Shown in pieces: positions 12,345 to 13,715 of a DNA stretch of 32,421 nt. The notes beneath the pieces are model-generated. The model made no database searches and was not told where the DNA came from. It worked only from the letters and a program-made list of their open reading frames with translations. The translations under genes were made by a program, and so were the position numbers. Origin of the DNA: Kiritimatiellia bacterium (GTDB lineage Bacteria > Verrucomicrobiota > Kiritimatiellia > SLAD01); contig SKLK01000067.1 in NCBI GenBank assembly GCA_007123265.1, positions 1 through 32,421 of the forward strand. Reading direction: 5' to 3'. Numbering within the stretch: the first letter of the stretch is position 1; each line of letters opens with the position of its first letter.

Positions 12345-12460
12345 GTCCGGGGTTTGCTTTTCTGCCGAACCGTTGTTCCGGTGGGTGACTACCCCCGCTT
12401 TGGAGTTGCAGGATGGCCAGACACTGTTCATCGTTGGCCCATTATGCATGTTGCTTTCTT
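12344..12460. repeat. Left copy of ~117-bp direct repeat (98-bp core 12363-12460)
   Basis: Core is 97/98 identical to 13618-13715 (offset 1255); single core difference C12389 vs T13644. The preceding 19 nt align without gaps but with 8 mismatches. Includes a duplicated ATGCATGTTGCTTTCTT gene start. Confidence 0.95.
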
Positions 12461-12568
12461 CCTGAGTTCAACACCCCTAATAAAAGCGCTCAAGACCCCT
12501 TTAAACATCGGATTACCCTTTTAGGTTGCTTGGCGATGCTTGAAAGAGCGCAATCTGCGTCAGAACGT

Positions 12569-12604
12569 GAGATAAGGGCGAAAGATTAAGGCGAAAGACA
12601 AGGG
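12569..12604. repeat. Left arm of ~36-bp inverted repeat
   Basis: GAGATAAGGGCGAAAGATTAAGGCGAAAGACAAGGG; reverse complement of 13427-13462 with 2 mismatches. Confidence 0.95.
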
Positions 12605-12609
12605 TTGAG

Positions 12610-13368
12610 ATGATGGCGCGTTACTTCCCGCATGAACAGCTTGATGTATACGGTGTTGCATTGAGGTTCGCAACGCTTGCGGACAGAATGTTGTCCACAT
12701 GGGAATCCTCCTGGGCTGTGCACAGTCAGTTTGACCGTGCGGTTGAGAGTATGGTGACCAATTTAGCCAAGGCCGCACGCCTTCGCGCCAGCGATGCCGG
12801 GATTTACAGCTTGGAGTGTTCGCTGGGGTCTGTTCTGGAATGCGCGGCATGCATGGATGTGGCTTTCTGCCGCGGATTGGTGGATGCGACGAGGATGAAC
12901 TCAGCCAAAGACCTGCTTCGGCAGATTGCCCGTATGGAGGTCGGATTACGCAAATCCTGGGATGCGTGTGTCAGTGAGCAACCTGACGCATATGGTGCGG
13001 ACTCAGAGAGATACTTCCGACACGAGACACTCGAAGTCTATCAACGCTCCCTGCAGATGCACGAGGCCTTGCATGCCATTTGGCAGATGGGTCAAAAGCG
13101 ATCGAGGCATGTAAAGAGAATCGATGAACTGACGACCAGCCTGACACTGAATATCGCGGAAGGTAACGGACGGTTCTCGAAGGTTGATCACCGCAATTTC
13201 ATCGGCACTGCAGAGGACGCAGCAACCAAGCTTGCCGCCTACCTGGATCTGCTTGCACCTGCGGCGCTGGTCGATACTAAACAAGTCAAGTGCTACTTGC
13301 GTGAAGTCATGGCTATGTTGTCCGGGCTGAGAGGGTATCTGGGTGAGTCGCGCAATGGGGAGCGATGA
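12610..13368 (+). CDS. Double-domain four-helix-bundle protein (23S rRNA intervening-sequence / S23-like)
   Basis: Two tandem related halves: YFPHEQLDVYGVALRF... and YFRHETLEVYQRSLQM...SLTLNIAEGNGRFSKVDHRNFIGTAEDAATKLAAYLDL; the second has the canonical S..NIAEG.GR signature. Confidence 0.85.
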   Translation: MMARYFPHEQLDVYGVALRFATLADRMLSTWESSWAVHSQFDRAVESMVTNLAKAARLRASDAGIYSLECSLGSVLECAACMDVAFCRGLVDATRMNSAKDLLRQIARMEVGLRKSWDACVSEQPDAYGADSERYFRHETLEVYQRSLQMHEALHAIWQMGQKRSRHVKRIDELTTSLTLNIAEGNGRFSKVDHRNFIGTAEDAATKLAAYLDLLAPAALVDTKQVKCYLREVMAMLSGLRGYLGESRNGER

Positions 13369-13426
13369 ATCAGGAAACGGTCGTTCGACGAGTTCAGAAA
13401 GAAGATTAAGATGAAGCGATCTTATT

Positions 13427-13462
13427 CCCTTGTCTTTCGCCTTCATCTTTCGCCTTTATCTC
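13427..13462. repeat. Right arm of ~36-bp inverted repeat
   Basis: CCCTTGTCTTTCGCCTTCATCTTTCGCCTTTATCTC pairs with 12569-12604. Confidence 0.95.
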
Positions 13463-13598
13463 TGGCTGCGGAAAGATGGCCGGTAAGAAAAAGAGGGGAG
13501 CAACTCTAATCCAGGTTAATCCGATGCAGAAATGGAAATAACATGAGCCGGGACTTCGATTAAGATTTCGCCTCGGGTGTCCCAATCCTGAACTCAGG

Positions 13599-13715
13599 AG
13601 TCCGCGGTTTTTCCCCATGCCGAACCGTTGTTCCGGTGGGTGATTACCCCCGCTTTGGAGTTGCAGGATGGCCAGACACTGTTCATCGTTGGCCCATTAT
13701 GCATGTTGCTTTCTT
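13599..13715. repeat. Right copy of ~117-bp direct repeat
   Basis: 98-bp core 13618-13715 is 97/98 identical to 12363-12460; contains the leader and first codons of the intact glycosyltransferase gene. Confidence 0.95.

Follow-up and report, generated by a model that had tools for sequence, protein, structure and literature searches.

A four-helix (PF05635) gene enclosed by a repeat-built stem links a protein family of unknown function to tandem repeat families scattered through bacterial genomes

Introduction

A gene lying in the loop of a long inverted repeat recalls the intervening sequences (IVSs) of 23S rRNA, in which an ORF of the PF05635 (four-helix, "23S rRNA IVP") family occupies the loop of a stem, as in Coxiella and Leptospira. 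Such an arrangement was proposed, from the sequence alone, for a locus in a 32,421-nt contig (SKLK01000067.1, assembly GCA_007123265.1; the whole of this stretch is called the window below) of a Kiritimatiellia bacterium. This sequence-only reading described two 36-bp arms complementary at 34 positions and built from a tandem motif, and hypothesized a chromosomal IVS-type cassette whose transcript is processed at the stem, or whose protein binds the stem. It was asked here whether the inverted repeat is real, whether it is a peculiarity of this locus and which kind of element it belongs to.

Results

The inverted repeat and the gene it encloses

The features identified at the locus are as follows.

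12345-12460 (no strand): left copy of the long direct repeat flanking the element, resembling a target site duplication; 98 bp at 99% identity plus a diverged 5' part, ending exactly at the left terminal inverted repeat
12460-12473 (+): left terminal inverted repeat, TCCTGAGTTCAACA, of the outer shell; reverse complement of the right end of dispersed copies
12497-12519 (+): left half of a second, nested inverted repeat (partner 13513-13535), 78% complementary
12519-12568 (+): left segment shared with dispersed ORF-less copies in the same genome (85-92% identity)
12569-12604 (+): left arm, tandem 13-nt units, containing the AAGGG ribosome-binding-site-like sequence
12610-13368 (+): ORF of 252 aa with two tandem PF05635/TIGR02436 four-helix domains
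13427-13462 (+): right arm, inverted copy of the left arm
13463-13599 (+): right segment shared with about 15 dispersed copies, mostly at 86-94% identity in the same genome, ending in the right terminal inverted repeat; complete right ends read ..CTCAGGA
13513-13535 (+): right half of the nested inverted repeat
13600-13715 (no strand): right copy of the long direct repeat, containing ATG 13701 of the downstream glycosyltransferase gene

The inverted repeat was confirmed, with both arms at the positions proposed and complementary at 34 of 36 positions (94%). Its alignment score was 31, against a maximum of 11 in 100 shuffled sequences, so a chance inverted repeat was rejected. The left arm ends 5 nt before ATG 12610 and the right arm starts 58 nt after the stop at 13368. 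Each arm is a tandem array of 13-nt units (ATAAGGGCGAAAG ATTAAGGCGAAAG ACAAGGG), and in the predicted fold of the 946-nt RNA the arms pair and close the whole ORF in both the minimum-energy and the centroid structures.

Profile searches assigned the ORF to PF05635 (Pfam, 1.7e-20, in two stretches) and to TIGR02436 (NCBIfam, 1.4e-16), with two separate domain hits, revealing a tandem duplication of the domain that had not been noticed in the sequence-only reading. No other family was detected above curated cut-offs, and therefore the protein lacks the Y1 (HUH) transposase of RAYT systems. A single-sequence AlphaFold model of the protein was too poor to be used (pLDDT 57).

The cassette thus has the protein family and the enclosing stem of a 23S rRNA IVS, but not its location: it lies between yraN and a glycosyltransferase gene, no Rfam match was found in the window, and none of the PF05635 loci examined here shows 23S sequence. 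Membership among the rRNA IVSs was rejected on these grounds.

ORF-less copies and an outer shell

When the genome of the window (G000; 2.43 Mb, 290 contigs) was searched at the DNA level, flanking pieces of the element were found on more than a dozen other contigs at about 90% identity, in several of them with the two arms only about 16 nt apart and without the ORF. One ORF-less copy folds with z = -4.8. Contig C14 (locus L016, G000:C14:493-835) carries two tandem left arms, each followed by the beginning of the four-helix ORF; in the copy read by eye an early stop interrupts the frame, i.e. a decaying ORF-bearing copy.

The window copy is also bracketed by 14-bp inverted ends and by a direct repeat of about 116 bp (12345-12460 and 13600-13715) that duplicates the start of the glycosyltransferase gene, another feature absent from the sequence-only reading. 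An ORF-less copy in a sister species (L070, G002:C136, around 1330-1675) has the same inverted ends and a direct repeat of about 53 bp, whereas no clear direct repeats were detected around other ORF-less copies in the window's genome. As long and variable direct repeats (8-514 bp) are reported for IS1634 and IS1549 (PMC2266710), the shell, with its matched inverted ends and long variable direct repeats, suggests an additional IS1634-like mobility. This attribution is inferred: in another genome (G054) an ORF end abuts the same 22-nt end, but at contig ends, a peptide search for the shell's transposase in plasmids gave nothing, and the IS with ends TCCTGAGTTCAACATTGGGACA was not recovered, so that the existence of a cognate IS1634 transposase is neither supported nor excluded by these observations. 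A search of plasmids for P0001 also gave nothing, and an empty site could not be recognized in sister genomes because the homologous DNA was too diverged.

These features allow the cassettes and hairpins to be regarded as mere passengers of ordinary transposons (here an IS1634-like MITE), with PF05635 unrelated to the repeats; in G000, the ORF-less copies with the shell may indeed have been spread by an IS1634-like transposase. However, bare hairpins of the same unit without any shell were found in sister species, so the hairpin is not simply part of that shell, and no such shell was noted at the Xanthomonas junctions described below. Hitch-hiking does not explain either why PF05635 genes in so many phyla have their own arms, and it is considered very unlikely. 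In one locus (L075, G004:C41) a window-type hairpin lies next to a different heptamer array (GTAAGCAGTGGTCAGTGTTCAGT), showing that hairpins of different units can cluster.

Inverted arms around PF05635 genes

To determine if the arrangement is general, inverted complementarity was scored between the two flanks of PF05635 genes and of ordinary genes from related genomes of the same class, allowing the arms to overlap the ORF ends. At a score of 16 or more, 78 of 111 PF05635 genes of the class and 53 of 76 from a multi-phylum set (Bacteroidota, Acidobacteriota, Planctomycetota, Gemmatimonadota, Clostridia, CPR and others) passed, compared to 2 of 186 control genes, one of which is a pair of tRNA genes (Fisher p<1e-30). 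The genes are not statistically independent, but the contrast is very large. In cyanobacterial plasmids, 9 of 10 PF05635 genes passed at a score of 15.5 or more. About 30% of the genes lack detectable arms, including the closest homologue of the window's gene (L097), and one two-domain gene (L125, G023:C77) has 54-bp near-perfect inverted flanks that, unlike the others, are not tandem.

The sequence of the arms differs from locus to locus, even among several PF05635 genes of one genome, as in Geobacter sp. AOG1 and Adhaeribacter, while complementarity is kept, that is, compensatory change at the scale of the whole arm. The IVS proposal had been made conditional on this point, as it was to be abandoned if arms were not conserved around homologous genes and showed no compensatory change; most homologues do have arms, and the proposal was not refuted. 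Its interpretation is therefore partly supported: the IVS-like architecture on the chromosome is right and turns out to be general, but too narrow in scope, and neither RNase III processing nor binding of the protein to the stem was assayed here, whereas the repeat units, the dispersed ORF-less copies and the Xanthomonas data point to a protein-repeat family system rather than only to a processed intron-like IVS.

Properties of the arms

The arms are tandem arrays whose period follows the number of domains in the protein. One-domain proteins were found with periods of 7 (85 loci), 8 (20 loci) or 9 nt (2 loci), with a few unclear, whereas two-domain proteins were found with 12, 13 or 15 nt in 10 of 10 cases with a clear period. 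Both kinds occur in the genome of the window, where loci L001 and L002 have 7-mers and 8-mers respectively, and the window locus 13-mers. As the two-domain proteins form a single clade, unit doubling is one evolutionary event, suggestive rather than proof that domains read units. The 5' arm was the G-rich strand in 120 of 131 loci.

Unit similarity tracked protein similarity only above about 50-60% identity (Mantel r 0.20) and was at background below about 50%. Therefore, a binding motif conserved across the family was rejected, and units drift fast, in concert between the two arms. In genomes other than those of Xanthomonas, arrays of a gene's own unit were 6.5 times denser in the same genome than elsewhere.

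These properties bear on two further explanations. In the first, the arms form an RNA stem that is cut by RNase III, removing the cassette from host transcripts so that insertions inside operons are tolerated, the dispersed hairpins being by-products. In its favour are the architecture and protein family shared with rRNA IVSs, whose 28-bp stem is cut by RNase III in Coxiella (PMC4990558), the pairing of the arms in the predicted RNA, and the position of cassettes inside operons (accB-accC, carA-carB and cas6-cas4). On the other hand, no locus is in rRNA, some cassettes lie antisense to or between convergent neighbours, and RNA processing explains neither the tandem units, nor their length following domain number, nor the hundreds of matching dispersed arrays. 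As the main explanation it is regarded as unlikely, although it is not exclusive of the one favoured below, since a removable stem would make insertion inside operons harmless.

In the second, the protein is a repressor whose operators are the arms, and the dispersed arrays are its regulatory sites. The left arm contains or abuts the ribosome-binding site and start codon, arms flank the gene tightly, and arrays lie near many unrelated genes (PMC4692102). However, the loss of unit similarity below about 50% protein identity argues against it, inverted pairing at both ends is not needed for repression, and a 3' arm overlapping the end of the ORF is unusual for an operator. Such an overlap was detected in Xanthomonas loci L299, L364, L366 and L367, where the 3' arm is translated as the C-terminal tail of the protein (e.g. 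GSRVPGPGSRIS, ESPIPNPQSHAR). This explanation is considered less likely still.

Dispersed units and resident genes in Xanthomonas

Between accB and accC, 31 of 35 genomes of the genus Xanthomonas carry the PF05635 gene or its remains, with GGGAATC-type arms. The gene is thus vertically inherited at a fixed place there, a property that was not shown for the window's gene. The protein is the orthologue of XCC0516 (phmmer, 1e-60), solved as PDB 2GSC with five chains and described as five four-helix bundles (Lin et al. 2006, title cited in PMC3936711). Four genomes have only a hairpin there, built from GGGACCC-like units.

Exact two-unit words were then counted on both strands in nine Xanthomonas genomes, the only ones counted. 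Genomes G059 and G073 hold 239 and 211 GGGAATC sites versus 0 and 1 GGGACCC sites, respectively. In contrast, G096, whose only PF05635 gene lies between carA and carB and has GGGACCC arms, with the 3' arm inside the ORF end, holds 27 GGGAATC versus 139 GGGACCC, and G060, which has both genes, holds 111 versus 19. The remaining counts were 0 versus 110 in G095, 51 versus 0 in G091, 31 versus 14 in G100, and 18 and 19 versus 2 and 1 in G089 and G090, the species with a degenerate gene. Controls with reversed sequences gave 0 but for a single site. Therefore, the dispersed unit follows the arms of the resident gene, with the unexplained exception of G095, in which no PF05635 gene was found (draft genome or loss).

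Discussion

Heptamer repeats like these had been described without an associated protein. The Xanthomonas GGGAATC and Nostoc GGGGA(C/T)T heptamers were reported by Rehm et al. 2015 (PMC4692102), with 70-75 convergent pairs per Xanthomonas genome, and their role was left open. TAACTGA repeats were described in Beggiatoaceae in 2015, with the speculation that a repeat-binding protein could be the mobile element (PMC4679880), 49 GGGACCG elements are listed for G. metallireducens (PMC2700814), and the cyanobacterial STRRs are 7-bp repeats of unknown function (PMC2670836). Two-unit words of these published repeats occur in loci of PF05635 genes, most of them at the arms. The three heptamer papers do not mention the four-helix protein, and no paper joining the two topics was found in the literature searched, although earlier work elsewhere cannot be excluded because only open-access papers were covered. 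The link joins two unexplained things: a widespread protein family named only for its occurrence in rRNA, with a solved structure of unknown function, and repeat families reported without a cause.

The explanation favoured here, with moderate confidence, is that the window holds an autonomous copy of a protein-repeat element working like REP/RAYT. In this view the protein, a pentamer in the solved relative, recognises the unit arrays as hairpin DNA or RNA and maintains or spreads the hairpins; the gene lives inside one of them, and arms and dispersed copies change unit together. The analysis itself demonstrated the arms around most PF05635 genes, their tandem units, the relation between unit length and domain number, the orientation rule, the dispersed copies, and the match between dispersed unit and resident gene in Xanthomonas. 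Physical binding, and that the protein (perhaps with a host reverse transcriptase or nuclease, by analogy with Avd) causes the spread, are inferences for which no binding or expression data were obtained; no nuclease or transposase motif is known in PF05635, and how copies would be made is not known. In G000 the cassette also rides in an outer shell with IS1634-like features.

The element resembles REP/REPIN-RAYT systems in having one fixed gene flanked by inverted copies of a repeat that is also dispersed as many non-autonomous hairpins of matching sequence, but its protein is a four-helix bundle instead of a Y1 transposase, and its hairpins are inverted tandem arrays of 7-13-nt units instead of REP palindromes. 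It resembles the rRNA IVSs in shape, but its arms are short tandem arrays with locus-specific units and ORF-less copies are dispersed. Regarding the IS1634 family and its MITEs, the resemblance is restricted to the outer shell, and the inner hairpin cassette is unrelated. A further comparison is with Avd of diversity-generating retroelements, which has a homologous fold (PMC10053308) and acts with its own reverse transcriptase and a template repeat at target sites that need a hairpin whose structure, not sequence, matters (PMC3240598). Together with the pentamer of small helical bundles, this makes hairpin DNA or RNA the likely ligand. No reverse transcriptase was seen next to the window's gene, but the ORF translations were only read by eye without a family search, which leaves a relation to these retroelements undecided either way.

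A broader reading, considered as likely as not, is that PF05635 proteins are the drivers of a bacterial class of repeat families, each protein recognising inverted arrays of its own short unit with roughly 6-8 nt per domain, living inside one such hairpin and spreading or maintaining the ORF-less ones. This would explain the heptamer repeats of Xanthomonas, Beggiatoa and Geobacter and the cyanobacterial STRRs. Insertion of such cassettes may also explain earlier reports of 23S_rRNA_IVP genes in cas loci (PMC3936711), as in plasmid pANA02 of Anabaena sp. 90 (L388) an arm-bounded PF05635 gene was found between cas6 and cas4 of a type I-D CRISPR locus.
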